Shown in pieces: positions 1 to 10,974 of a stretch of 50,591 bases of DNA. The position numbers were made by a program, and so were the translations under genes. Where the stretch lies: assembly GCA_949289455.1 (NCBI GenBank), contig CASEOA010000011.1:1-50591 (forward strand), in the 5' to 3' direction. Below the pieces are notes generated by a model. The model did no database searches. It was given only the letters and a program-made list of their open reading frames with translations, and was not told the origin of the DNA. Source of the stretch: an uncultured Eubacteriales bacterium. Its GTDB lineage: Bacteria > Bacillota > Clostridia > Oscillospirales > Oscillospiraceae. Within the stretch, counting starts at the first letter, position 1; each line of letters begins with the position of its first letter.

Positions 1-546
1 ACCGTGGCTGGTGCCGATGGCGATGGCCAGAGAGTCGCAGCCGGTCTTGGTCACGAACTCCTCCACCTCTTCGGGGCGGGTGTAGGAAGCGGCATGGGCG
101 GCCACCTTCACGTCGTCCTCAATGCCGGCCAGGGTGCCCAGCTCGGCCTCCACCACCACGCCGTGGTCGTGGGCGTACTCAACCACCTTCTTGGTGATCT
201 CGATGTTCTCCTCAAAGGGCTTGGAGGAGGCGTCGATCATAACGGAAGTAAAGCCGCCGTCGATGCAGCTCTTGCAGGTCTCAAAGTCAGGACCGTGGTC
301 CAGGTGCAGCGCGATGGGGATGTTGGGGCACTCAATGACAGCGGCCTCCACCAGCTTCACCAGATAGGTGTGGTTGGCATAGGCGCGGGCGCCCTTGGAC
401 ACCTGGAGGATCATGGGAGCGTTGACTTCCTTGGCGGCCTCGGTGATGCCCTGGACGATCTCCATGTTATTCACGTTGAACGCGCCTACGGCGTACCCAC
501 CGGCATAGGCCTTCTGGAACATCTCTTTGGTTGTTACGAGCGGCAT
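1..546 (-). CDS. fba: Fructose-1,6-bisphosphate aldolase, class II (3' end outside window)
   Basis: Cleaves fructose-1,6-bisphosphate to DHAP and glyceraldehyde-3-phosphate in cytosolic glycolysis. The 182 visible N-terminal residues begin MPLVTTKEMFQKAYAGGYAV and contain the class II pattern: FNVNNMEIVQGI, the metal-binding HLDHG near residue 80, and EAELGTLAG about 50 residues later. The window edge falls in the IGTSHG motif, so roughly the last third is missing. The start at 546 is preceded by AGGAGATGATTGTT. It is divergent from the PPi-type phosphofructokinase gene, which makes its substrate, and their promoters overlap. Confidence is high for the family. Confidence 0.95.
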   Translation of the reverse strand, partial: MPLVTTKEMFQKAYAGGYAVGAFNVNNMEIVQGITEAAKEVNAPMILQVSKGARAYANHTYLVKLVEAAVIECPNIPIALHLDHGPDFETCKSCIDGGFTSVMIDASSKPFEENIEITKKVVEYAHDHGVVVEAELGTLAGIEDDVKVAAHAASYTRPEEVEEFVTKTGCDSLAIAIGTSHG

Positions 547-577
547 AACAATCATCTCCTTTTTTTGTTGCACCATG

Positions 578-606
578 ATTTTAACAGTTCTCATTGATAT
601 TTTCAA
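578..606 (-). promoter_or_regulatory. Sigma-A-type promoter of fba
   Basis: On the minus strand, TTGAAA (606-601), a 17-nt spacer and TAAAAT (583-578) lie about 32 nt before the fba start. The -35 box falls inside the spacer of the divergent pfp promoter, so the two polymerase sites overlap physically. Confidence 0.65.
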
Positions 607-622
607 GAGGTCGTGGTATGAT
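594..622 (+). promoter_or_regulatory. Sigma-A-type promoter of pfp
   Basis: TTGATA (594-599), a 17-nt spacer and TATGAT (617-622) lie upstream of the pfp ribosome binding site at about 661. It is divergent from and overlaps the fba promoter. Confidence 0.65.
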
Positions 623-674
623 ATTCCCGCAAAAATTATTTTGTAAAAATTTTAACCATCAGGAGGCTACTTTC

Positions 675-1916
675 ATGAGTGAACTGAGAGGCGCTTGTAT
701 CATCGGCCAGTCCGGCGGCCCCACCGCCGTCATCAACGCCAGCGCGCTGGGCGTTATCCGCACCGCCCTGGACACCGAGTGTGTCACCCGGGTGCTGGGC
801 GCTGCCAACGGCATCAAGGGCGTGCTGGAGGACCGGCTGTACGACATGGGCCAGGAGGACGCCGCTGAGCTGGATCTGCTCAAGTACACCCCTTCCTCCG
901 CTCTGGGCTCCTGCCGCTATAAGCTGGCCGACCCCGACAAGGACGACACCGATTACAAGCGGATCCTGGAGATCTTCCAGAAGTATGACGTGCGCTACTT
1001 CTTCTACAACGGCGGCAACGACTCCATGGACACCTGCAACAAGATCTCCAAGTATATGCAGAAGGTGGGCTATGAGTGCCGCATCATGGGCGTGCCCAAG
1101 ACCATCGACAACGACCTGAACGGCACCGACCACTGCCCCGGCTTCGCTTCCGCCGCCAAGTACATTGCCACCTCCTGCGCCGAGGTGTGGCAGGACGCCC
1201 ACGTGTACGACACCGGCATGGTCACCGTCATCGAGATCATGGGCCGTCACGCCGGCTGGCTGGCCGGCTCCGCCGCCCTGGCTTCCCTCACCGGCTGCGG
1301 CCCCGACCTGGTCTACCTGCCTGAGGTGGACTTCGACATGGATCAGTTCGTGGCCGACGTCACCGCCATCTACAACAAGACCGGCAAGTGCATGGTGGCC
1401 GTGTCCGAGGGCATCCACTACGCCGACGGCCGCTTCGTGTCCGAGGCTGAGACCTCCGCCACCGACGGCTTCGGCCACGCCCAGCTGGGCGGCCTGGCCG
1501 TGAAGCTGGCCGACGTCATCAAGAACAAGACCGGCGCCAAGGTCCGCGGCATCGAGCTCTCCCTGCTCCAGCGCTGCGGCTCTCACGTGGCCTCCAACAC
1601 CGACATCGAGGAGGCTTTTGCCGCCGGTAAGGCCGCCGTGGAGGCCGCCGTGTCCGGTACCACCGACAAGATGGTGGCCTTCCAGTGCACCCGCGAGGGC
1701 GGCTACAAGTGCGAGACCGTCCTCCAGCCCCTGGACATCGTGGCCAACTTTGAGAAGAAGGTGCCCCGTGAGTGGATCAACGAGGCCGGCAACGGCATCG
1801 AGCAGCCCTTCATCGACTATGTGCTGCCCCTGGTTCAGGGCGAGCCCAACCGGGCCCTGGAGAACTCCCTCCCCCGCTTCGCCCACCTGAAGAAGGTTCT
1901 CACCACCGAGATGTAA
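675..1916 (+). CDS. pfp: Pyrophosphate-type 6-phosphofructokinase
   Basis: Phosphorylates fructose-6-phosphate, probably with PPi as donor, reversibly. The 413-residue protein starts with the phosphate-binding GQSGGPTAVINAS (about 11-23). At the two positions that separate donor types it has GGNDS (113-117) and PKTIDND (141-147). The Asp in GGND and the Lys in PKTIDND are the PPi signature; ATP enzymes have Gly at both. The first Asp of the usual GGDD is Asn here. The start at 675 follows AGGAGG at 661; an upstream in-frame start lacks a ribosome binding site. The gene is convergent with the ATP-type pfkA, now separated from it by the mobile element. Confidence 0.9.
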   Translation: MSELRGACIIGQSGGPTAVINASALGVIRTALDTECVTRVLGAANGIKGVLEDRLYDMGQEDAAELDLLKYTPSSALGSCRYKLADPDKDDTDYKRILEIFQKYDVRYFFYNGGNDSMDTCNKISKYMQKVGYECRIMGVPKTIDNDLNGTDHCPGFASAAKYIATSCAEVWQDAHVYDTGMVTVIEIMGRHAGWLAGSAALASLTGCGPDLVYLPEVDFDMDQFVADVTAIYNKTGKCMVAVSEGIHYADGRFVSEAETSATDGFGHAQLGGLAVKLADVIKNKTGAKVRGIELSLLQRCGSHVASNTDIEEAFAAGKAAVEAAVSGTTDKMVAFQCTREGGYKCETVLQPLDIVANFEKKVPREWINEAGNGIEQPFIDYVLPLVQGEPNRALENSLPRFAHLKKVLTTEM

Positions 1917-1921
1917 GACCG

Positions 1922-1942
1922 ATACAAAAGAGCGCCGTTCCC
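1922..1942. repeat. Left arm of a split bidirectional terminator
   Basis: These 21 bases are the exact reverse complement of 6805-6825. The arm begins 5 nt after the pfp stop codon, and its partner ends 5 nt before the pfkA stop codon. Together they would form one 21-bp hairpin with A and T tracts on either side, that is, a shared terminator for two convergent genes. The mobile element lies between them. Confidence 0.85.
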
Positions 1943-1946
1943 ATTT

Positions 1947-1968
1947 GGTGAACGCCGATAAGGAAGTA
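1947..1968 (+). repeat. Left terminal inverted repeat of the element
   Basis: Matches the reverse complement of 6777-6798 at 17 of 22 positions without gaps. The inner 11 bases, ATAAGGAAGTA (1958-1968), are identical. Imperfect inverted ends flanking a 2-3 bp crossover are expected for large serine recombinase attachment sites. Confidence 0.75.
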
Positions 1969-2015
1969 TCAAAGACATACTAACTTAACGGCTGACAAAC
2001 AGGGTTGCTAAAATG

Positions 2016-2058
2016 AACCGGCGTGTTATTTCGCAATGAAATGGCACGCCGGTTTTCT
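2016..2058 (+). terminator. Hairpin terminator just inside the element
   Basis: AACCGGCGTG (2016-2025) pairs perfectly with CACGCCGGTT (2045-2054), followed by TTCT. It could stop transcripts entering from pfp now that the native terminator is split, or protect the element from read-through. Confidence 0.6.
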
Positions 2059-2187
2059 ACGCATTTCAAACTGCGTTTTCAAGGGTAAGAATGGCAAGAT
2101 ACCGCCGGCTATCCAAGCACGCTAGAAAGGCCCGGTAACATCGGGTTTTCTACCCTCTAAGTGCGTAGGCATAAACGTCATAATAGT

Positions 2188-2221
2188 AGCGGGCGCAAGT
2201 AGATTTCTGCTTGCGCCCGCT
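2188..2221. repeat. 12-bp perfect hairpin
   Basis: AGCGGGCGCAAG (2188-2199) pairs with CTTGCGCCCGCT (2210-2221) around a 10-nt loop. There is no clear T tract. Its role is unknown; it may be a terminator or a structural part of the element end. Confidence 0.5.
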
Positions 2222-2234
2222 TGGTTACCATACA

Positions 2235-2305
2235 GCAAAGACGGAGGAAGCCGTCAAGGGCGCGAAGCGTTCATCTCGACCCTTGACGGCTTCCTTTGGC
2301 TTTGC
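2235..2305. repeat. Large inverted repeat downstream of the orf8-like gene
   Basis: AGGAAGCCGTCAAGGG (2245-2260) pairs perfectly with 2280-2295, and the outer GCAAAG/CTTTGC extend it after a 4-nt mismatch, giving 26-nt arms around a 19-nt loop. It abuts the stop codon of the HTH gene. Neither strand has a T tract, so a simple terminator role is doubtful. Confidence 0.6.
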
Positions 2306-2541
2306 TATTTCTTTACCACGATGGCTTCCACCAATTTTGCCTGTAAGCGGTGCTTCATGTACTCGTCAATGCCGATGTGCGGCAAACCATCTTTGTCATA
2401 GCGAGTTCGCATACAAATCTTGTTGATGTAGCGGTCGTAGTACCGCAAGATGCGCTCCAATGCTAATGGATCACCGGCGCGGGCCGCTTCGATCACGTCC
2501 ATGGGCAAAAGCACTCTGCCGTTAAAAGTTGGTTGCTTCAT
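2305..2541 (-). CDS. Tn916 ORF8-like helix-turn-helix protein
   Basis: A 78-residue protein beginning MKQPTFNGRVLLPMDVIEAA, rich in Arg and Lys, resembling the short HTH protein that follows the orf7 sigma factor in Tn916-type conjugative elements. It starts one base after the sigma gene stop codon (TAA, then C, then ATG), with AAGGAG about 12 nt upstream, so the two are almost certainly co-transcribed and coupled. A role in controlling element genes is inferred from that family. The conjugation genes that normally accompany the pair are absent here. Confidence 0.75.
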   Translation of the reverse strand: MKQPTFNGRVLLPMDVIEAARAGDPLALERILRYYDRYINKICMRTRYDKDGLPHIGIDEYMKHRLQAKLVEAIVVKK

Positions 2542-2542
2542 G

Positions 2543-2968
2543 TTAGTTTCTCACTCCTTTGGATTTCAAGTCTTTTCGCAGTTCGTTCAATGTCTTTGTC
2601 CTGTGGCGTTGGACGGCGCTGCGGGACATACCAACAAAATCACCCACTTTTCTGTCTGGAAGTTCCAGCGCATAATGTAGAATTAAAATCTGCTGCTCAC
2701 ATTCCGGCAAACTTACAAAAGCGTCTGCCACTAATTCGCTCTGAATATACAGAACATAGCCAAACGCCGAAAATGCAAACCTGTTGCTGGGGTATTCGTC
2801 TACGGTATAAAGTTTATCCATTTCGTGTTGGGACAAGGCGCTTAACTGGATTGCTCGTTTCCGCTGGCGGTTTAGTTCCCGGAAGTAGCTGATGGCCTCA
2901 TGGCGGAGAACGGTTTTGCAGAAAGCGTCGAACTGGTGCCGTGCTCCATATTCATCAAACACAAACAT
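2543..2968 (-). CDS. Tn916 ORF7-like sigma-70 family factor
   Basis: A 141-residue protein beginning MFVFDEYGARHQFDAFCKTV. The N-terminal half resembles a reduced region 2 (YFRELNRQRKR). The C-terminal half holds a region-4 helix-turn-helix: LPECEQQILILHYALELPDRKVGDFVGMS followed by RSAVQRHRTKTLNELRK. Members of this family sit in the regulatory part of Tn916-like elements. The start at 2968 has GGTGAG 6 nt upstream. It forms a pair with the HTH gene downstream. It could direct transcription of element genes; its own promoter was not clear. Confidence 0.8.
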   Translation of the reverse strand: MFVFDEYGARHQFDAFCKTVLRHEAISYFRELNRQRKRAIQLSALSQHEMDKLYTVDEYPSNRFAFSAFGYVLYIQSELVADAFVSLPECEQQILILHYALELPDRKVGDFVGMSRSAVQRHRTKTLNELRKDLKSKGVRN

Positions 2969-3460
2969 TATCTTCTCACCCCCGATCTGCGGGAGAGTGA
3001 GAAGTTGAGGTTGGGGCTACCGCCCCTTGCATTTATGTTGTTGCGGCAGTTCCGGCCCGCACCGAAAGACCGCAATAACAACTCAGTAAAAGCGAATGTG
3101 ATATGCTGATTATTTACATCGTATAGTACATCTTTTAGCCTAAACCTCTCCCATGCCGAGAACAGGCTTTTTTTGAGAAGCTATGTGTTTGGTGCATTAG
3201 CATGGCGGTTTCCTCCATAACCGCCGTTCCTGTGCAGGGCAAACGAAAGCGGCGGCCTTGATTTCTCAAAGCCGCCGCTGGTCGTATGGGCGTGTCAAAT
3301 GGCTGCTAGGCGACGGCTTTTTTCTTTTGCCGTCGTTCGGCAGATTCTTTGATATTTATAAGCTCTTGTATACTATCCTAACCCCAATGTAGGGAACGTG
3401 AAATAGTAGCCATACATTTAGCAGGTCATAGATACGCTTGTCTAGTAATGGGGGAACAAC
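2969..3460. other. Non-coding region with hairpins inside the element
   Basis: About 490 bp upstream of the sigma-like gene with no convincing intact gene. It contains a hairpin of 14-15 bp arms (3248-3279, one mismatch), a smaller one formed by GGCGGTT/AACCGCC at about 3203-3224, CGACGGC (3311-3317) paired with GCCGTCG (3329-3335), and a possible gene relic (3306-3377). A 27-residue minus-strand reading frame beginning MEETAMLMHQTH is also open here but has no supporting evidence. Confidence 0.6.
3306..3377 (-). pseudogene. Possible 3' relic of a truncated element gene
   Basis: On the minus strand the frame reads DSIQELINIKESAERRQKKK followed by AVA and a stop, preceded directly by an in-frame stop with no start codon. 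The charged, Lys/Arg-rich ending looks like the C-terminus of an element-encoded DNA-binding or mobilisation protein cut off when the AT-rich Rgg segment arrived. The parent gene was not identified and chance is not excluded. Confidence 0.3.
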
Positions 3461-3607
3461 TTACAGCGAAAAGACACTTTTTAACGCTTTCCCTAAGAGT
3501 TCGATTTTGCCTATCTTTTCCAAATCTTTCCGTAGCTTTTCTTCACTGCCATGTTTCCCGGCAACAACCTTAATGATTTTTGTTCCCGGGATAGTGCTTT
3601 TTTTCAT
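3461..3607 (-). CDS. Small 48-residue cationic protein, divergent from the Rgg gene
   Basis: The sequence begins MKKSTIPGTKIIKVVAGKHG, continues as a Lys/Glu-rich likely amphipathic helix and ends in the hydrophobic stretch LLGKALKSVFSL. It is not a recognised family. GGAG lies 9 nt before the ATG at 3607 and a good promoter lies just upstream (3631-3658). A longer plus-strand frame over the same bases has no ribosome binding site. Position, divergent and adjacent to an Rgg-type regulator, is where peptide-pheromone or target genes usually lie. It has no obvious signal peptide, so both the pheromone and the target reading remain inference. Confidence 0.55.
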   Translation of the reverse strand: MKKSTIPGTKIIKVVAGKHGSEEKLRKDLEKIGKIELLGKALKSVFSL

Positions 3608-3630
3608 TTGCAGCATCTCCTTTCTCCCTC

Positions 3631-3658
3631 ATTATAAAATCCATGGCTATCAGTGCAA
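3631..3658 (-). promoter_or_regulatory. Promoter of the 48-residue ORF
   Basis: On the minus strand TTGCAC (3658-3653), a 16-nt spacer and a consensus TATAAT (3636-3631) lie 24 nt before the start codon. About 40 bp separate it from the Rgg promoter, leaving room for a shared operator. Confidence 0.55.
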
Positions 3659-3695
3659 AATAAGTCCGAGTATTCAGACCATTTTTATTTGGATG

Positions 3696-3704
3696 TGATA
3701 TAAT
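3696..3704 (+). promoter_or_regulatory. Extended -10 promoter of the Rgg-type gene
   Basis: TGATATAAT is an extended -10 element 30 nt before the start codon of the regulator. The -35 region is weak, which is common when the TG extension is present. Confidence 0.55.
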
Positions 3705-3733
3705 GGATATTAGTAGAGCAAGAGGTGAGAATT

Positions 3734-4609
3734 ATGGAAACATACGGTATCACGATTCGTAAGATTAGATTAAGCAAAGGTTTTTCCCATAAAGAAATAT
3801 ATACTGGCATTTTGAGTAAGTCCTTTGCCATTGATTTCGAGAAAGGGATGTATGACATCAAGTTCAATCTCATATTGAGAATTTTGGATAGGCTAATGAT
3901 TTCTGTAGATGAGCTTCTTCTGATACATAGCCAGTACAAAACAACACCTTGTCAAGAACCTTTGCTAAATGTTAATCTTGAGCGAATAAAAAACGATCCA
4001 TTATATTCTGCTGATATAGAGAAGAAGTTATATGATGAAATGACGGCAAATAAAACCTCATCAAGCAAATTACAACACGCAGAAATAGTAGCATTAAGAT
4101 CTGTATATGGAAATCCTGATTATCAAAATTCATCCGAGTATCAAGCAGCTAAAAGCTACATTCAGAAATATCTATTTGATGTGGAAACCTGGTCATTATC
4201 TGAATTTCGTATATTTTCAGATATGAGCTTTATATTTGAGAATGGTGATGTGAAAACCTCACTTTTTCTTACCGCGTGGGATACTTTGGAAAAATACAGA
4301 GCACATCCAGATTATCAAGTATATCTATCTCATTTGCTAGTCAATAATCTTTATCAACTGATTTGCAGCAGGCAATATACCATTGCAAAAAGAGCAATCG
4401 ATAAACTGCAAGAATTAACTATCGATCCCAATATGCTATCTTGGAAAGTTCCGATGCTCTATTATGACGGTTTGTTAAACTACGTAACAGGCAATCCGCA
4501 ATCAGGTCTATCAAAGATCAAAAAGGCAAAGCAGATTTATCATCTATGTGGCAATGACTTTATGGTTGAGCAAATGGAAATTGGCCTAAAACATCTGCAA
4601 AATCCATAG
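3734..4609 (+). CDS. Rgg/GadR/MutR-type transcriptional regulator
   Basis: A 291-residue protein, usual for Rgg proteins. The N-terminal helix-turn-helix (about 4-65) has the family pattern IRKIRLSKGFSHKEI, ILSKSFAIDFEKG and ILDRLMISVDELL. The rest is helical, like the TPR-type peptide-binding domain of this class. Rgg proteins bind short peptides and control divergent or nearby genes; here a 48-residue ORF is divergent. The ATG at 3734 has AAGAGG 8 nt upstream; a GTG three codons earlier overlaps that site. The gene is strikingly rich in AT beside its neighbours, implying recent transfer, perhaps from a Lactobacillales-like donor (inference). Confidence 0.8.
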   Translation: METYGITIRKIRLSKGFSHKEIYTGILSKSFAIDFEKGMYDIKFNLILRILDRLMISVDELLLIHSQYKTTPCQEPLLNVNLERIKNDPLYSADIEKKLYDEMTANKTSSSKLQHAEIVALRSVYGNPDYQNSSEYQAAKSYIQKYLFDVETWSLSEFRIFSDMSFIFENGDVKTSLFLTAWDTLEKYRAHPDYQVYLSHLLVNNLYQLICSRQYTIAKRAIDKLQELTIDPNMLSWKVPMLYYDGLLNYVTGNPQSGLSKIKKAKQIYHLCGNDFMVEQMEIGLKHLQNP

Positions 4610-4829
4610 AAAGAAGCAATGAACTAATCTATACAAAGTTCTCATTTTGCGGGCAGATTCCGTCCTTTCCAGCGTATTATTGGCGAAGCAAAAAACAAGG
4701 GTTTGGGAAGCTCCCAACAAGCAAAAATCTCCGCTCCGGCAGCAGGCCAGAAACGGAGATTTTGCGGAAGTGTGGCCACACTTCCTATGCTTGCTCTGTT
4801 GTGACTTCCCCGGAAAGGACGGGAACGGA
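4610..4829. other. Region between the Rgg gene and tnpW: hairpin and palindrome
   Basis: About 220 bp. AAAATCTCCG (4724-4733) pairs with CGGAGATTTT (4754-4763), a probable terminator of the Rgg transcript. Directly after it lies a perfect 20-bp palindrome (4766-4785). The open frame running through here into tnpW from 4647 is judged non-coding before 4830. Confidence 0.55.
4766..4785. repeat. Perfect 20-bp palindrome upstream of tnpW and the recombinase
   Basis: GGAAGTGTGGCCACACTTCC is fully self-complementary. It lies 44 bp before the tnpW start. It could be an operator for the excision genes or a leftover transfer or relaxase site; the sequence does not decide between these. Confidence 0.7.
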
Positions 4830-5087
4830 ATGGAAAGGAAACGAAGCACCAAAGAGAGCGATTATCTCCCAAAACGGGGAAATCCGCTGCAAGAAACCGT
4901 CTGTTATAAGCTCGGCGGGACGGTCTATGAAGTACATACTTCCTGCGGTGGGACGGAGCCACTTTATGACAAAATGGTGCGGCTTATTCGTTCGGAAGCC
5001 ATTGCCACATCTGCTGACAAAGAGGACAAACCGCAGTATAATAAGGACAGCAACCTGTTTGCCGGGCGTTCATTACAGGAGGAATGA
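4830..5087 (+). CDS. TnpW-like transposon-encoded protein
   Basis: An 85-residue protein with a central YKLGGTVYEVHTSC...LYDKMVRLIRSEA segment that resembles the TnpW family found next to TnpX-type recombinases. The ATG at 4830 has AAGGAC about 10 nt upstream. It ends 3 nt before the recombinase start, so both are probably one transcript. The biochemical role of TnpW is not established. The family call rests on a short conserved core. Confidence 0.55.
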   Translation: MERKRSTKESDYLPKRGNPLQETVCYKLGGTVYEVHTSCGGTEPLYDKMVRLIRSEAIATSADKEDKPQYNKDSNLFAGRSLQEE

Positions 5088-5090
5088 ACC

Positions 5091-6743
5091 ATGACAGCAA
5101 ACACCAACTATCCCGACAACATTACCGCTTTATACGCCCGCCTATCCCAAGAGGACGCGCTGGACGGCGAGAGTAACAGCATAGCCAATCAAAAGAAAAT
5201 CCTTTTGAAGTACGCAACCGACAACGGTTTCCCTAATCCAAAGTTCTTCATTGACGATGGTGTGTCCGGGGTAACATTTGACCGTCCGGGCTGGAATGAG
5301 GTGATCCGGCTGGCCGAGGCGGGAAAGGTCAGAACCGTCATTGTCAAGGATATGTCCCGCATGGGCCGGGACTATCTGAAAGTGGGCTACTATACCGAGA
5401 GTTTCTTTGCCGAGCGCGATATTCGGTATATCGCCATCAATGACGGCGTGGAAAGCGACAAGGGGGACAACGATTTCACCCCTTTTCGTAATCTGTTCAA
5501 CGACTTCTACGCCCGCGATACCAGCAAAAAGATCCGGGCCGTCATGCGGGCCAAAGGAAACGCCGGGGAACACCTCTGCACCAATCCGCCCTACGGGTAT
5601 CAGAAAGACCCGGCGGATAAAAAGAAATGGATTGTGGACGAGGAAGCCGCCGAGATTGTCAAACGGATTTTTGACCTGTGCATTGCAGGGAAAGGCCCCA
5701 TGCAGATTGCCAAGCTGTTGACCGCCCAGCACGTCCTGACGGTTAAAGCTCACTATGCCCAACGGGACGGAAAGCCGCTGCCGGAGAAGCCTTACAAGTG
5801 GAGTCCCAAGTCTGTTGCGGGAATTTTGGAGCGGCCAGAGTACACCGGCTGCACGGTAAACTTCAAGACCTATTCCAAGTCCCACAAGCTGAAAAGACGG
5901 CTGCATAATGCCCCGGAGAATCAGCGGATTTTCCCCAATACCCAGCCTGCCATTATCGAGGAACAAGTCTTTGCGCGGGTACAGGAGTTGCGGGAGAACA
6001 AACGCCGCCCGGCCAAACAAGCCGAACGGCAAGGGTTGTTTTCTGGCCTGTTGTACTGCGCCGACTGTGGAAGCAAACTGCATTTCGCCACTGGCAAAAA
6101 CATGACACCGCAACAAGACTGCTATCGGTGTTCTCGGTATAAAAGTAACACGGGTGATTGTACCATGCACTTTATCCGGGAAGGAACGCTGAAATTGTTC
6201 GTGTTGCAGCGGATTTTCGATGTGACGGCATTGTTCTTCGACGATGCCATGGCATTTGAGGAAGCGGCGAGAAAGCAGCGTTTTCAAGAAGCGGAGAAAG
6301 AGGCCAAGAAGCGCAAGCGTGAAATCGCCCAAGCGGAAAAGCGCATTACCGAACTTGACCGCATTTTCAAGCGCATTTATGAGGACGACATCATCGGTAC
6401 AATCAGCCATGAACGGTTCTTGAAACTCTCTGCTGACTATGAGGCAGAACAAAAAGAACTGACGGAGCAGGTCAAGGCATGGCGACAAGCGGTAGAAACC
6501 TTTGAACAGGATCAAGCTGATTTTGCCAGCTTTGCAGCCATTGTACGGAAATATGTGGGCATTCGTGAACTGACGCCCACCATCGTCAACGAGTTTGTGA
6601 AGAAGATTATCGTCCATGCGCCGGATAAGTCCAGCGGCCACCGCAGGCAGAAGATCGAACTGGTCTGGAACTTTATCGGAGAAGTCAACCTGCCGGGCGA
6701 CGATCAGACGGTGGAACGGCAAAGAAAAGGCAGGACGGCATGA
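5091..6743 (+). CDS. Large serine recombinase, TnpX-like
   Basis: Catalyses excision and integration of the element. The 550-residue protein has an N-terminal resolvase domain with the nucleophile Ser19 in LYARLSQED, NSIANQKK (29-36) and the Arg-rich VKDMSRMGRD (85-94). A recombinase domain follows (NPPYGYQKDP, then SVAGILERPEYTG), then a zinc ribbon starting CADCGSKLHF at about 323 with a second CYRC pair, and a Lys/Glu-rich coiled coil (about 395-480). These are the parts expected of a complete large serine recombinase, and none is missing. AGGAGG lies 9 nt before the ATG. It is the last gene before the right end, so it is the likely enzyme acting on the ends described here. Confidence 0.93.
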   Translation: MTANTNYPDNITALYARLSQEDALDGESNSIANQKKILLKYATDNGFPNPKFFIDDGVSGVTFDRPGWNEVIRLAEAGKVRTVIVKDMSRMGRDYLKVGYYTESFFAERDIRYIAINDGVESDKGDNDFTPFRNLFNDFYARDTSKKIRAVMRAKGNAGEHLCTNPPYGYQKDPADKKKWIVDEEAAEIVKRIFDLCIAGKGPMQIAKLLTAQHVLTVKAHYAQRDGKPLPEKPYKWSPKSVAGILERPEYTGCTVNFKTYSKSHKLKRRLHNAPENQRIFPNTQPAIIEEQVFARVQELRENKRRPAKQAERQGLFSGLLYCADCGSKLHFATGKNMTPQQDCYRCSRYKSNTGDCTMHFIREGTLKLFVLQRIFDVTALFFDDAMAFEEAARKQRFQEAEKEAKKRKREIAQAEKRITELDRIFKRIYEDDIIGTISHERFLKLSADYEAEQKELTEQVKAWRQAVETFEQDQADFASFAAIVRKYVGIRELTPTIVNEFVKKIIVHAPDKSSGHRRQKIELVWNFIGEVNLPGDDQTVERQRKGRTA

Positions 6744-6764
6744 CCTTTCAGCCATGCCGTCCTG
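6731..6764 (+). terminator. Hairpin spanning the recombinase stop codon
   Basis: CAGGACGGCATG (6731-6742) pairs perfectly with CATGCCGTCCTG (6753-6764). The stop codon (6741-6743) is inside the hairpin. There is no long T tract, so termination may be partial. Confidence 0.5.
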
Positions 6765-6776
6765 CGACAATTAAAT

Positions 6777-6798
6777 TACTTCCTTATGGGAGCGCTCC
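6777..6798 (-). repeat. Right terminal inverted repeat of the element
   Basis: Reverse complement of the left end (1947-1968) with five mismatches. The inner 11 bases (6777-6787) are identical to the left copy. It is followed by the TTT junction repeat (6799-6801). Confidence 0.75.
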
Positions 6799-6804
6799 TT
6801 TACC

Positions 6805-6825
6805 GGGAACGGCGCTCTTTTGTAT
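6805..6825. repeat. Right arm of the split bidirectional terminator
   Basis: Exact reverse complement of 1922-1942. Joined to the left arm it would leave a 7-nt loop (ATTTACC, given one copy of TTT), restoring a symmetrical terminator between pfp and pfkA. Confidence 0.85.
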
Positions 6826-6830
6826 TGCAG

Positions 6831-7814
6831 TTATTGCAGTCCGGTGAGGGCCCGCATAACGGTATAGGTCTGCTGGTCCAGGCCCTTCTTCATGGCCAGG
6901 GCCTCGTGGATGTCGTAGTCCACATAGGATTCGCCGTCCATAGCCACCACGCGGCAGGTCTTGCCCTCGGCCAGCAGGCGCACAGCCTCATAGCCCATGT
7001 AAGTAGCGGCCACACGGTCCCGGAGGGAGGGGGCGCCGCCCCGCTGTACGTGGCCCAGGATGGTGACACGGGTGTCCAGGGAGGTGGCCTCCCGGATGTG
7101 GTTGGCGATATCGTAGGCGCCCCCCTGCACGCCCTCGGCCACAATGACCATGAAGTGGGTGCGGCCGGCCAGGCGGGAGCGGCGGATGGGCTCGATGAGG
7201 TCGTGCTCATAGTCGATGGTCTGCTCGGGCACCACCACGGCGGTGGCGCCGCAGGCCACGCCCACGTTGAGGGCCACATGGCCGGCGTGGCGGCCCATGA
7301 CCTCCACCACCGAGCAGCGCTCGTGGGACTGCATGGTGTCACGCAGCTTGTCAATGGACTCCACGGCGGTGTTGCAGGCGGTGTCATAGCCGATGGTGTA
7401 GGTGGAGCAGGCAATGTCGTTGTCGATGGTTCCGGGGATTCCGATGACGCTCAGGCCCTTGTCGGCCAGGGTGAGCAGGCCGCGGAAGGTACCGTCGCCG
7501 CCAATGCCCACCAGGGCGTCCAGACCCAGCAGCTTGCAGGTGTTGACCGCCCGCTCCCGGCCCAGCTCGGACTTGAAGTCCTCGCTGCGGGCGGAGTACA
7601 GCATGGTACCGCCCCGGCGGGACAGGCCGCTGACGCTGTCAAAGTCCAAAGTAACGAAGTCGCCGTTGATGAGACCGTGATAGCCGCGCCGGATGCCCAC
7701 GCACTCGATGCCCATGTGGACAGCGGTACGCACCACCGAACGGATGGCCGCGTTCATGCCGGGGGCGTCTCCCCCGCTGGTGAATACACCAATGCGCCGG
7801 ACTGCTTTTTCCAT
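6831..7814 (-). CDS. pfkA: ATP-dependent 6-phosphofructokinase
   Basis: Phosphorylates fructose-6-phosphate with ATP, the committed glycolytic step. The 327-residue length is normal for bacterial PfkA. It has the ATP signature FTSGGDAPGMNAAIR (11-25), IGGDGTF (104-110) and IPGTIDND (126-133), with Gly at both donor-determining positions. EVMGRHAGHVAL and VTILGHVQRGGAPS are also present. AAGGAGG lies before the ATG at 7814. It lies 68 nt downstream of purB on the same strand. Its native downstream terminator was split by the mobile element. Confidence 0.96.
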   Translation of the reverse strand: MEKAVRRIGVFTSGGDAPGMNAAIRSVVRTAVHMGIECVGIRRGYHGLINGDFVTLDFDSVSGLSRRGGTMLYSARSEDFKSELGRERAVNTCKLLGLDALVGIGGDGTFRGLLTLADKGLSVIGIPGTIDNDIACSTYTIGYDTACNTAVESIDKLRDTMQSHERCSVVEVMGRHAGHVALNVGVACGATAVVVPEQTIDYEHDLIEPIRRSRLAGRTHFMVIVAEGVQGGAYDIANHIREATSLDTRVTILGHVQRGGAPSLRDRVAATYMGYEAVRLLAEGKTCRVVAMDGESYVDYDIHEALAMKKGLDQQTYTVMRALTGLQ

Positions 7815-7882
7815 GACGATTTCCTCCTTGCACTTGTGGCCCTAGGGGCCGTTTGGGTCTCTCTATGTTAGATGATACGGTC

Positions 7883-9322
7883 TTACACCTTCAGTTCCGC
7901 CTCTTTGCCCTCCAGGGCGGCGGCGTACTGGGCCAGCACAGGCCGCACCTCGGCCTCCAGGAATTCGCTGACCTGCTCCGGGCAGCGGCCGATGTAGCGG
8001 GCGGGCTCCAGGTGGGCGGTGATCTCCTCCCGGCTGAGCATGGAGAAGGCCGGGTGGGCGGCGATGAGGTCGATGAGGTTGTTGGACAGGCCCAGATCCT
8101 TCACGTTGGCCCCGGCCTGCTGGCTGAGCACCCGGATGTGCTCGTGGAGCTCCTGCCGGTTGCCGCCCCGCTTGACGGCGTCCATCATGATGTTCTCGCT
8201 GGCCATAAAGGGCAGCTCCTCCAGCACATGCTTTTCGATGACCTTCTCGTGGACCACCAGGCCCCCGGCCACGTTGGCCCAGATGTTCAGGATGGCGTCG
8301 GTGGCCAAAAATGCCTCGGGCACGCTGAGGCGCTTGTTGGCCGAGTCGTCCAGGGTGCGCTCAAACCACTGGGCGGAGGCGGTAATTGCGGGGTTGAGGG
8401 CGTCGCACATCACGTACCGGGCCAGGGAGCAGATGCGCTCGCACCGCATGGGGTTGCGCTTGTAGGGCATGGCGGAGGAGCCGATCTGGTTCTTTTCAAA
8501 GGGCTCCTCCACCTCCTTCAGGTGGCAGAGCAGCCGCAGGTCGGTGGCGAACTTGCTGGCGGACTGGGCGATGCCCGACAGGGTGGACAGCACGGCGTAG
8601 TCCACCTTCCGGGAATAAGTCTGCCCCGACACGGGGACGGTGTCCTCAAACCCCATCTCGGCGGCGATCTTCCGGTCCAGGGCCTTGCACTTTTCGTGGT
8701 CCCCGTCGAAGAGCTCCAGGAAGGAGGCCTGGGTGCCGGTGGTGCCCTTGCAGCCCAGCAGCTTCAGGGTGGAGATGCGGTGCTCCACCTCGTGGAGGTC
8801 GTAGAGCAGCTCGTTCATCCACAGGGTGGCCCGCTTGCCTACGGTGACCAGCTGGGCAGGCTGGAAGTGGGTGAAGCCCAGAGTGGGCAGGGCCTTGTAG
8901 CGCTCAGCAAAAGCGGCCAGCTTGTCCAGCACCCGGACCAGCTGGTCCCGTACCAGCTCCAGGGCCTCCCGCATGAGGATGATGTCGGTGTTGTCCCCCA
9001 CGTAGCAGCTGGTGGCCCCCAGGTGGATGATGGGCATGGCGTCGGGGCAGGCGTCGCCGTAGGTGTGGACGTGGGCCATCACGTCGTGGCGCAGCTTCTT
9101 CTCGTATTCCGCGGCCTTTTCATAGTCGATATCGGTGAGGTGGGCCTCCAGCTGGGCCACCTGCTCCGCCGTCACCGGCAGGCCCAGCTCCATCTCCGCG
9201 CGGGCCAGGGCTACCCACAGCCGCCGCCAGGTGGAAAACTTCTTGTCCGGGGAGAAAATATACTGCATCTGGTCGCTGGCGTACCGGGAGCAGAGGGGAC
9301 TTTCATATCGGGCGTGATCCAT
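7883..9322 (-). CDS. purB: Adenylosuccinate lyase
   Basis: Cleaves fumarate from SAICAR and from adenylosuccinate in purine synthesis, in the cytosol. The 479-residue length is typical. The fumarase/aspartase superfamily signature SSAMPYKRNP is present, along with HLGATSCYVGDN and the TLGFTHFQPAQ region that holds a catalytic His. The start at 9322 is preceded by AAAGAGGT. A consensus promoter lies immediately upstream. It is divergent from the polyphosphate kinase gene. Confidence 0.96.
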   Translation of the reverse strand: MDHARYESPLCSRYASDQMQYIFSPDKKFSTWRRLWVALARAEMELGLPVTAEQVAQLEAHLTDIDYEKAAEYEKKLRHDVMAHVHTYGDACPDAMPIIHLGATSCYVGDNTDIILMREALELVRDQLVRVLDKLAAFAERYKALPTLGFTHFQPAQLVTVGKRATLWMNELLYDLHEVEHRISTLKLLGCKGTTGTQASFLELFDGDHEKCKALDRKIAAEMGFEDTVPVSGQTYSRKVDYAVLSTLSGIAQSASKFATDLRLLCHLKEVEEPFEKNQIGSSAMPYKRNPMRCERICSLARYVMCDALNPAITASAQWFERTLDDSANKRLSVPEAFLATDAILNIWANVAGGLVVHEKVIEKHVLEELPFMASENIMMDAVKRGGNRQELHEHIRVLSQQAGANVKDLGLSNNLIDLIAAHPAFSMLSREEITAHLEPARYIGRCPEQVSEFLEAEVRPVLAQYAAALEGKEAELKV

Positions 9323-9359
9323 GAGACATACCTCTTTTTTTCTAATTTCGTCTTTTGAC

Positions 9360-9388
9360 AGTATACTATAAACGCACCTGTATCACAA
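9360..9388 (-). promoter_or_regulatory. Sigma-A-type promoter of purB
   Basis: On the minus strand TTGTGA (9388-9383), a 17-nt spacer and TATACT (9365-9360) lie 37 nt before the purB start. Confidence 0.65.
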
Positions 9389-9436
9389 GGAAAATTTGTA
9401 CCTTTTTACGACTGGCTTTGAAATTTTTTGCCGGAC

Positions 9437-9465
9437 TTGCCACCGGGGCTGCCGGGGTGTACACT
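9437..9465 (+). promoter_or_regulatory. Sigma-A-type promoter of the polyphosphate kinase gene
   Basis: TTGCCA (9437-9442), a 17-nt spacer and TACACT (9460-9465) lie 33 nt before the start codon. Confidence 0.55.
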
Positions 9466-9498
9466 GAACTTATCAGATCAATGACAGGAGGTGGAGCT

Positions 9499-10974
9499 AT
9501 GCTCCGGGAATTTGTCTTTGGGCAGGAGCGCCGCACCGAAAGCGAGTGCAAAAGCCTGCTGAAAGTCCGCCGGGAGGAGCTGGCGGCGTTGCAGCAGAAG
9601 ATCAAGCAGGCGGGCCTGCCGGTGATCGTGCTGCTGGAGGGGTGGAGCGCCTCGGGCAAGGGCCGCACCATCCAGGCCCTGATCCGGGATCTGGACCCCC
9701 GGTTCTTCCGGGTGCTCAGCGTGGGCCCCCCTACCCCGGCGGAACAGCGGTGGCCCTTCCTGAAGCGGCACTTCGAGTCCATCCCCGAGGCGGGCAAGGT
9801 GCTCTTCCTGGACACCGGCTGGATGGAGGAGACCGTGCGGGCCTATCTCCGGGGGGATCTGTCCGACCTGGAGTACCAGAAGCGGCTGGACAGCATCAAT
9901 ATCTTCGAGCGGCAGCTCACCGCCGGGGGCTATCTGCTCATTAAACTGTTCCTCCACATCGACGCCCAGTGCCAGAAGGAGCGGCTGGACGGCCTGGCCT
10001 CCGACAAGGAGACCCTCTGGCGGGTCAACGACGAGGACCGCAGGCAGAACAAGAATTATGACAAGAATCTGGCGGTGTTTGAGAGCTATCTGGAGGCGAC
10101 GGACAAGCCCTGGGCCCCCTGGAAGGTCATCGACAGCACCCAGGCCGCCAAGGGCAATCTGGCGGCGGCGGACTGGGTATACCAGCAGATTACCGCCGCC
10201 CTGGAGAGCCGGCCTCAGCCCGTCCACCCGGAGTACCGCTGGGACATGGCCCCTCCCCTCCCTCTGGCCCAGGCCGACCTGACCCAGACCCTGGAGGAAA
10301 AGGAGTACCGCAAGCAGCTGAAAAAGTGCCGGGCCAAGCTGGCCGCCCTCCACAACGAGCTCTACCGGAAGAAGGTGCCGGTGGTCATCGCTTACGAGGG
10401 CTGGGACGCCGCCGGCAAGGGGGGCAACATCAAGCGTCTGGCCTCCGCCCTGGACCCCCGGGGGTATGAGGTCCTCCCCATCGCCGCCCCCACCAAAGAC
10501 GAGCTGGCCCGCCATTACCTGTGGCGGTTCTGGACCCGCCTGCCCAAGACCGGCCACATCGCCATCTTCGACCGGAGCTGGTACGGCCGAGTGATGGTGG
10601 AGCGGCTGGAGGGCTTCTGCTCCACCGACGACTGGCAGCGGGCCTACGACGAGATCAACGAGTTTGAGAAGGAACTGGTGGACTGCGGCATGGTGGTGCT
10701 GAAGTTCTGGGTGCAGATCGACAAGGACACCCAGCTGGCCCGGTTCAACGAGCGGCAGGCCGACCCCGCCAAGCAGTGGAAGATCACCGAGGAGGACTGG
10801 CGCAACCGGGAAAAGTGGGACGCCTATGAGATCGCCATCAACGAGATGCTGGCCCGCACCAGCACCACCTTCGCCCCCTGGCACATCCTGGAGTCGGTGG
10901 ACAAACGCTTCGCCCGCATCAAGGCCATGAAAACCGTCATCGAGGCCATCGAGGCCATCGAGGCAGCGCTGTAG
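9499..10974 (+). CDS. pap: Polyphosphate:AMP phosphotransferase, tandem PPK2 domains
   Basis: Probably transfers phosphate from polyphosphate to AMP or another nucleotide in the cytosol. The 491-residue protein holds two PPK2 domains, as in the two-domain polyphosphate:AMP phosphotransferase family. The C-terminal domain is intact: EGWDAAGKGGNIKR (about 300) and FDRSWYGRVMVER. The N-terminal domain keeps a P-loop-like EGWSASGKGRT (47-57) but the DRSWYGR motif has become DTGWMEE, so it is probably catalytically inactive. The ATG at 9499 follows AGGAGGTGG; the frame is open further upstream, but through the promoter. PPK2 donor and acceptor preferences cannot be read from sequence. Confidence 0.85.
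   Translation: MLREFVFGQERRTESECKSLLKVRREELAALQQKIKQAGLPVIVLLEGWSASGKGRTIQALIRDLDPRFFRVLSVGPPTPAEQRWPFLKRHFESIPEAGKVLFLDTGWMEETVRAYLRGDLSDLEYQKRLDSINIFERQLTAGGYLLIKLFLHIDAQCQKERLDGLASDKETLWRVNDEDRRQNKNYDKNLAVFESYLEATDKPWAPWKVIDSTQAAKGNLAAADWVYQQITAALESRPQPVHPEYRWDMAPPLPLAQADLTQTLEEKEYRKQLKKCRAKLAALHNELYRKKVPVVIAYEGWDAAGKGGNIKRLASALDPRGYEVLPIAAPTKDELARHYLWRFWTRLPKTGHIAIFDRSWYGRVMVERLEGFCSTDDWQRAYDEINEFEKELVDCGMVVLKFWVQIDKDTQLARFNERQADPAKQWKITEEDWRNREKWDAYEIAINEMLARTSTTFAPWHILESVDKRFARIKAMKTVIEAIEAIEAAL

Follow-up and report, generated by a model that had tools for sequence, protein, structure and literature searches.

Large serine recombinases (LSRs) include a multi-targeting clade rich in the DUF4368 domain, for which the available text of Durrant et al. 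2022 (PMC10083194) gives an example with a TT core and T/A-rich edges. Intrinsic terminators are generic targets of the class C (IIC) group II introns, which insert downstream of them (PMC3522654, in the part available). Tn916 carries a terminator, T1, near one of its ends, which blocks transcription from a host promoter (PMC11658703, partial text). Here we describe a mobile element located between the genes pfp and pfkA in contig CASEOA010000011.1 (assembly GCA_949289455.1) of an uncultured Eubacteriales bacterium of the Oscillospiraceae; the whole stretch analysed, of 50,591 nucleotides, is called the window. The element measures 4,858 bp (4.86 kb) between the arms of a split hairpin. We think it likely that it is a serine-recombinase integrative element that in practice uses the loop region of bidirectional terminators as its attB, reading the target motif as linear duplex, and that its own inward hairpins replace the terminators lost upon insertion.

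As in the multi-targeting DUF4368 or TndX-like LSRs, in so far as the available text describes them (PMC10083194), we found a DUF4368 domain, many unrelated genes as neighbours, and an attB with a TT core and outer ends rich in A/T. The element differs from those LSRs, as described there, in that its targets are mostly bidirectional terminator loops and in that terminator-like hairpins lie inside it. The use of intrinsic terminators as targets by a mobile element is shared with class C group II introns; however, these introns are retroelements and land on its downstream side, while here the loop is split (PMC3522654, same part of the text). The possibility that the element is itself a group IIC intron was discarded, because an Rfam search of the element gave no match at gathering score, no reverse transcriptase was present among its scanned proteins, and the insertion lies in the loop. 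Compared with Tn916, whose targets are AT-rich according to the part of the source available (PMC11658703), the element described here has an inward hairpin at each end, and its insertion site too is a putative terminator.

The pfp-pfkA insertion site and its counterparts in relatives

The two neighbours have their 3' ends facing the element. On the left, pfp (669..1916, plus strand; NF010675, E 6.2e-168; PF00365) encodes a diphosphate--fructose-6-phosphate 1-phosphotransferase, and on the right, pfkA (6831..7814, minus strand; NF002872, E 9.9e-117) encodes an ATP-dependent 6-phosphofructokinase. The first-pass annotation had described perfect inverted arms of 21 bp, each 5 nt away from a stop codon. 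Coordinates and pairing agree with this: the left half of attB (1922..1942, plus strand) and the right half (6805..6825, plus strand) are complementary at 21/21 positions, and the stop codons of pfp and pfkA lie at 1914-1916 and at the complement of 6831-6833. The trinucleotide TTT is present at both ends, at 1944..1946 in attL and 6799..6801 in attR (both plus strand), as two copies of the presumed crossover core. Removing one of them reproduces the empty site predicted in that annotation, a 21-bp stem with the 7-nt loop ATTTACC. The flanks of the window element pair with a duplex energy of -40.3, while 182 mismatched flank pairs, made from 14 copies with both ends on the same contig, average -10.0 and go no lower than -25.1; energies of -28 or lower are reached by 0.3% of 60,000 random host positions. 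The target combines a G+C-rich stem, a short loop, a T-tract and a position at a gene 3' end. Judging from its sequence, we take the site between the convergent genes pfp and pfkA to be a bidirectional intrinsic terminator that the element has split, each arm being one half.

Perfect arms that flank an element could also be its own terminal inverted repeats, or a hairpin made by the insertion. Nevertheless, the arms vary from copy to copy, unlike the conserved inner ends, and relatives that lack the element at this site have a hairpin there. A pfp match at E <= 1e-150 was obtained in 17 of 20 genus genomes, own genome included, and 14 of the 16 others have a terminator-like hairpin (<= -15 kcal/mol) within 100 nt 3' of pfp; the split half left after pfp in the window gives -1.1. 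No such hairpin was found in L201 and L202, and that of L189, which begins 52 nt downstream, looks unrelated. A stem of the GCCGTTCCC type is carried by five of these relatives and by L095. In L190, L192, L194 and L195 it has the form GAGCCGTTCCC ... GGGAACGGCTC, starting with GGAG in L190 and L192; L191 has one mismatch, and in L095 the stem beside pfp is GCGCCGTTCCC ... GGGAACGGCGC. On this comparison, the window stem is a variant of the stem type of the relatives. The loops of these six are ACTCAT, ACCAC, ACGAA, ATCAC, GTCAT and AGATC, none of which is ATTTACC exactly. Thus, the expectation that related genomes would carry the empty site held for the hairpin and the stem type but not for the loop. 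As the hairpin exists in relatives whose site is empty, we ruled out the arms as repeats of the element, an explanation to which we give practically no chance.

A second site allows a similar comparison. A copy from F. plautii (96% identity; right end L008 and left end L118, on separate contigs) adjoins SpoIIR, and of 19 other genomes of the genus, 12 show an uninterrupted hairpin at this site and 7 do not.

Recurrent targets and the target motif

The genome of the window holds a single close copy of the element, together with six other matches of at most 42% identity. Close relatives (E <= 1e-230) are rare, being found in 4 of 400 family genomes and 3 of 398 phylum genomes, own genome included in both counts. 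A scan of contigs from GTDB species gave 173 relatives, 80 of which were kept, and left and right ends in relatives were located by similarity. Viral contigs contributed 2 loci and no usable end pair, and in a group at ~53% identity one fixed pattern failed to locate left ends.

It had been suggested from the window alone that the recombinase might target terminator loops, and other copies do split putative terminators of unrelated genes. In the 14 same-contig copies, of which three span ~28 to 44 kb from end to end, own flanks pair with a mean of -22.4 versus -10.0 for the 182 mismatched pairs; 0 of 20,000 permutations were as low, and the true partner ranked first in 10/14. A further 11 pairs, with ends on different contigs of one genome and chosen after the flanks had been seen, gave -22.3 versus -12.8 (0/20,000; first in 7/11), and -21.0 versus -12.0 when a twelfth pair was added (0/20,000 permutations; first in 7/12). 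Pairing of -16 or lower together with an A-run and a T-run of at least 4 each, which we took as the mark of a terminator, was found in 10/14 same-contig copies (the window and 9 others), 4/11 other-contig pairs and 184 of 281,925 host background positions (0.065%). These figures indicate that targeting is recurrent but not absolute.

Of a set of 24 genomes, 11 gave the other-contig pairs and 3 gave same-contig pairs (L018, L050 and L011). Two genomes were excluded as ambiguous: G812, with three left ends (of those tried with L017, L142 pairs at -30.4 and L120 at -5.3), and G817, with several (L143 with L025, -6.8). G829 and G827 had no right end, and G808, G815, G816, G818 and G822 had no credible left end. 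The twelfth pair is that of G807 (L133 with L009, -6.6, no hairpin), first omitted for its sister-group type of left end, although L131, L134 and L135, which have the same type, were kept. One failing pair that was kept, L125/L022, is probably false, and its removal changes little. The left end L125 belongs to a miniature of ~140 bp (manual count) at ~1500-1650, in the genome of L022, with no gene inside; it consists of the left end, one hairpin resembling that at the recombinase 3' end and a sequence like the right end, and it looks like a non-autonomous derivative similar to miniature inverted-repeat transposable elements.

The genes beside the insertions are diverse. In 21 other copies the right neighbour has a Pfam match, each to a different main family, and the only one of these families in common with the window is PFK, in L027. 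That copy, from a genome labelled Candidatus Mediterraneibacter pullicola, adjoins a phosphofructokinase-family gene, either by coincidence or through a shared type of terminator. Neighbour orientation was judged by Pfam matches or annotation only, and the Pfam-bearing frame may not always be the nearest gene; open reading frame (ORF) length or codon score alone was abandoned for this purpose, since even pfp and pfkA were misjudged by it. The right-hand gene has its 3' end toward the element in 21/23 cases (exceptions L061 and L022) among 33 right ends, 10 of which lacked orientation evidence, two of these having been scanned without a match. The left-hand gene does so in 11/15 (exceptions L019, L126, L131 and L134) among 30 left ends, with 15 lacking such evidence. 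In the 13 copies with both neighbours known, 8 pairs are convergent, 5 tandem and 0 divergent; in the tandem ones the right gene reads into the element in 4 and the left gene in 1.

Aligned on the core, the targets share a fixed geometry. On the left, positions -13 to -18 favour A, positions -8 to -11 favour G, and positions -2 and -3 favour C; on the right, the preference is for G from +2 to +5, for C from +9 to +11 and for T from +13 to +18. A occupies -16 in 26/30 left flanks and T occupies +15 in 28/33 right flanks. A-runs of at least 4 are present in 25/30 left flanks and T-runs of at least 4 in 26/33 right flanks, and A-runs occur in 9.3% of random host 20-mers. The core is mostly TT, with AA-type cores in the minority: the 30 left ends have TTT (14), TTA (9), AAA (3) and four others once each, and the 33 right ends TTT (23), TAA (4), TTC (3), CTT (2) and ATT (1). 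The crossover point within TTT is ambiguous, since L021 shares positions 1-2 while L051 and L015 share positions 2-3.

In A118-type LSRs, the available text places the zinc-domain motif of attB 11-19 positions away from the centre, with a preference for thymine at 17-19, and that of attP at 16-24 (PMC3783163). In our targets the C-T tract lies near that place in attB, and the conserved 8-mer of the element ends near that of attP. Because of this resemblance, we propose that the foot of the terminator stem with its T-tract may be the half-site of the zinc domain.

Linear sequence or folded structure

A recombinase that inserts into hairpins might recognise the folded form (hairpin or cruciform), or a terminator that is being transcribed, instead of a linear sequence. 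Some targets agree with this, as they combine a low motif score with a strong hairpin (window, 4.6 and -40.3; L130-L014, 8.4 and -44.8; L134-L027, 8.4 and -29.5), and each of the 13 copies for which the genes on both sides were identified is intergenic. Motif scores, computed leave-one-out for 23 pairs, were compared with a background of all DNA and then with non-coding DNA only, the mask removing stop-free stretches of at least 80 codons and leaving 4.5% of the DNA. Over all DNA, at thresholds from 8 to 12, hairpins are present in 0.76-0.92 of targets and 0.20-0.29 of background sites (0.92 of 13 versus 0.29 of 136 at scores of at least 12), which also speaks for structure. However, the gap narrows at higher scores: at 14 or more it is 1.00 of 10 targets versus 0.44 of 48 background sites, and at 18 or more 0.86 of 7 background sites are hairpins.

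In the non-coding background, sites with a TT/AA core are hairpins in 0.80 of 30 at scores of at least 8 and 0.92 of 12 at scores of at least 10, and targets at the same thresholds in 0.76 of 21 and 0.82 of 17; when the core is not required, the background figures are 0.52 of 71 and 0.73 of 22. We thus gave up the hairpin excess as proof of structure recognition, as non-coding TT/AA-core matches are equally rich in hairpins, a comparison of few sites that is not final. Since this background is as hairpin-rich as the targets, a linear motif with its core and avoidance of genes would be enough to account for them. Recognition of structure is further opposed by the A- and T-tracts at a fixed distance from the core, by the existence of targets with no hairpin, and by the fact that LSRs studied so far bind duplex attB, according to the text available (PMC3783163). 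Overall, we consider it improbable. The same low expectation applies to its strongest form, in which the recombinase would sense the folded terminator and any bidirectional terminator, whatever its place or sequence, would be the universal docking site of the clade, paid for with two terminators of the element. Most likely, the recombinase reads a linear, terminator-shaped palindrome in duplex DNA.

Several observations weigh against our proposal of a linear motif that in practice selects terminators, with inward hairpins as replacements. The window site has the lowest motif score of the 23 (4.6) and the second strongest hairpin, which a purely linear reading would not predict; this is the chief observation that such a reading leaves unexplained. 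Motif matches scoring at least 8 number 749 in stop-free stretches and 71 outside, being ~10 times commoner in the former; as the 13 copies with known neighbours on both sides are intergenic, the other matches must be eliminated by selection or by some additional requirement. Three of the 14 same-contig copies (L084, L020 and L121/L011) have no strong hairpin, and 5/11 other-contig pairs fall short of -16, or 6/12 with the added pair. As for the hairpins inside the element, the one at the right overlaps the stop codon and 3' end of the recombinase gene, so its conservation is partly coding, and the left one of the window was missed by the pattern scan, with part of its T-tract inside the stem.

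Inward hairpins, element genes and the proposed mechanism

Each end of the window element has a terminator-like hairpin directed inward. The rightward one (2012..2055, plus strand; -28.3 kcal/mol, with TTTTCT at its foot) lies ~65-110 nt inside the left end, and the leftward one (6730..6765, minus strand; 16 pairs in the pattern scan, with tail CTTTTCTTTG) 35-70 nt inside the right end. Among the relatives, a left-end inward hairpin with a T-rich tail, ~50-140 nt in, reaches -18 or lower in 27/28 copies with sufficient sequence versus 2/224 dinucleotide shuffles, and the right-end inward (minus-strand) hairpin does so in 33/33 copies versus 6/264 shuffles. In the outward direction, 17/28 left ends and 1/33 right ends are terminator-like. 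The left hairpins vary in sequence between copies and keep their place and T-tail, which argues that they have a function; we infer that the inward hairpins terminate transcription. Because such hairpins are present at both ends, transcripts from pfp, which had been said to enter the element, probably do so for ~110 nt and are then probably ended by the hairpin at 2012-2055.

We hypothesize the following mechanism. The recombinase would read a double-stranded motif of two-fold symmetry, made of A-tract, G-rich, C-rich, TT core, G-rich, C-rich and T-tract segments at fixed distances, which in non-coding DNA would mostly amount to a terminator. Integration would split the stem and each neighbour would lose its terminator; the inward hairpin near each element end would then stop transcription from both neighbours a short way beyond the stop codons, before it crosses the element, and the original terminator would be restored by precise excision. 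The split hairpin, the repeated targeting, the motif, the orientation of neighbouring genes, the conserved inward hairpins and the hairpins of relatives can all be read from the DNA; catalysis by this recombinase, its reading of linear duplex, termination at the inward hairpins and excision are presumed.

Alternatively, the target could be merely an AT-edged palindrome, with terminators hit by resemblance and without adaptive meaning, and the inward hairpins could be ordinary insulators. Tn916, whose integration is AT-rich, also has an insulating terminator near one end, in the part of the source available (PMC11658703), and the outward terminator-like character of 17/28 left ends would agree with plain insulation. 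A sister group at ~71% identity has a related palindromic target and weaker pairing (own pairs -12.4 versus -8.4; 19 copies, L040 having been dropped because its left flank is the same as that of L049), with strong hairpins in 7/19. On the other hand, the preserved place and T-tail of left hairpins that differ in sequence, and the presence of inward hairpins at both ends, are expected if lost terminators need to be replaced, and L066, at 63% identity, also lies in a perfect terminator-like stem. We regard this alternative as rather unlikely, though worth keeping in mind, and retain replacement of split terminators as the preferred explanation. Six copies with right ends of the sister-group type (L039, L040, L049, L060, L064 and L075) have the common target GATTTTCCGGGGTTTTTGAGCAATTTTGATAC in their right flanks. 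The left flanks of L038 and L046 resemble tRNA 3' ends by eye.

The recombinase (5091..6743, plus strand; 550 aa) contains Resolvase, Recombinase, zinc ribbon and DUF4368 domains, all four above the Pfam cut-offs, and among solved chains the TnpX catalytic domain (2mhc, E 5.4e-39) is the nearest to it. By its domains and this nearest chain, it is classified as a TnpX-like DUF4368 LSR, akin to those of the Tn4451 (TnpX) and Tn5397 (TndX) elements. TnpX and TndX have GA as their target dinucleotide. From the kinship with TnpX we would presume excision as a circle. The ends of the element differ from those of Tn4451 and Tn5397 in a conserved 8-mer located 13 nt from the TT core, and of the proteins of the window element scanned against Pfam and NCBIfam, none was recognised as a relaxase. 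The presumed attP half-sites, similar to the ends of relatives, are at 1947..1968 (plus strand; 13 nt followed by AAGGAAGT) and 6777..6798 (plus strand; ACTTCCTT followed by 13 nt), and joined as in a circle they would read ACTTCCTT-N13-TTT-N13-AAGGAAGT. They are the 22-bp imperfect inverted repeats noticed at first pass, matching at 17/22 positions by manual count, with a 14-nt part listed by the repeat search.

Upstream of the recombinase gene there is a small ORF of 85 aa (4831..5087, plus strand), matched by tblastn at 40-79% in 9/10 other delimited elements. Searches of Pfam and NCBIfam gave it no family match, and as a guess, it possibly encodes a directionality or regulatory factor. Further left are a helix-turn-helix (HTH) protein of the HTH_16 family (2305..2541, minus strand; PF12645, E 3.5e-20) and a sigma-70 region 4 protein (2543..2968, minus strand; PF04545, E 3.8e-6; TIGR02937, 2e-10, just under the cut-off). 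HTH and sigma-like regulators are also present in Tn916, which uses a tyrosine recombinase. The cargo is an Rgg/GadR/MutR-type transcriptional regulator (3725..4609, plus strand; PF21259, E 1.5e-21; TIGR01716); tblastn at 1e-5 detected no counterpart in the 10 other delimited elements.

These other elements range from 2 to 10.5 kb, perhaps to ~44 kb. A minimal copy of 2,057 bp (L013, 8534-10594), with the recombinase as its sole match to the window proteins and with the end hairpins present, is in effect an insertion sequence driven by an LSR. A 10.5-kb copy on the Pusillibacter faecalis plasmid pMM59_01 (L113, ~200-10710), between genes annotated as convergent, has an ABC transporter and a two-component system among its cargo, which is bordered by the HTH/sigma pair, as known from the window, on one side and by the recombinase on the other. 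Another, with a recombinase 85% identical, occupies a terminator-type site between ABC ATPase and P-type ATPase genes in a 113.9-kb record labelled bacteriophage (L114, MT835476), either a phage or a mislabelled chromosome.

The words terminator, hairpin and palindrom- are absent from the main text of Durrant et al. 2022 (PMC10083194) and from a 2026 paper on multi-targeting engineering, and 'terminator' and 'hairpin' are absent from a review of integrative mobilizable elements. Literature searches gave no printed report of LSR insertion in terminator loops, a weak negative, as preprints and most subscription papers lie outside their coverage. Multi-targeting DUF4368 recombinases are already known; as far as our searches reach, the terminator class of targets and the element-borne inward hairpins are new.

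Our results would provide an insertion rule for a class of multi-targeting serine recombinases, namely bidirectional terminator loops between gene ends, beyond AT-rich DNA. They also make it possible to test whether the enzyme reads sequence or structure. The terminators of the element, in place of the broken one, suggest how it affords such an insertion, which they could render nearly harmless. Near-harmless and predictable landing sites would then be expected in many genomes, a prediction relevant to the biology of mobile elements and to the choice of integration tools.

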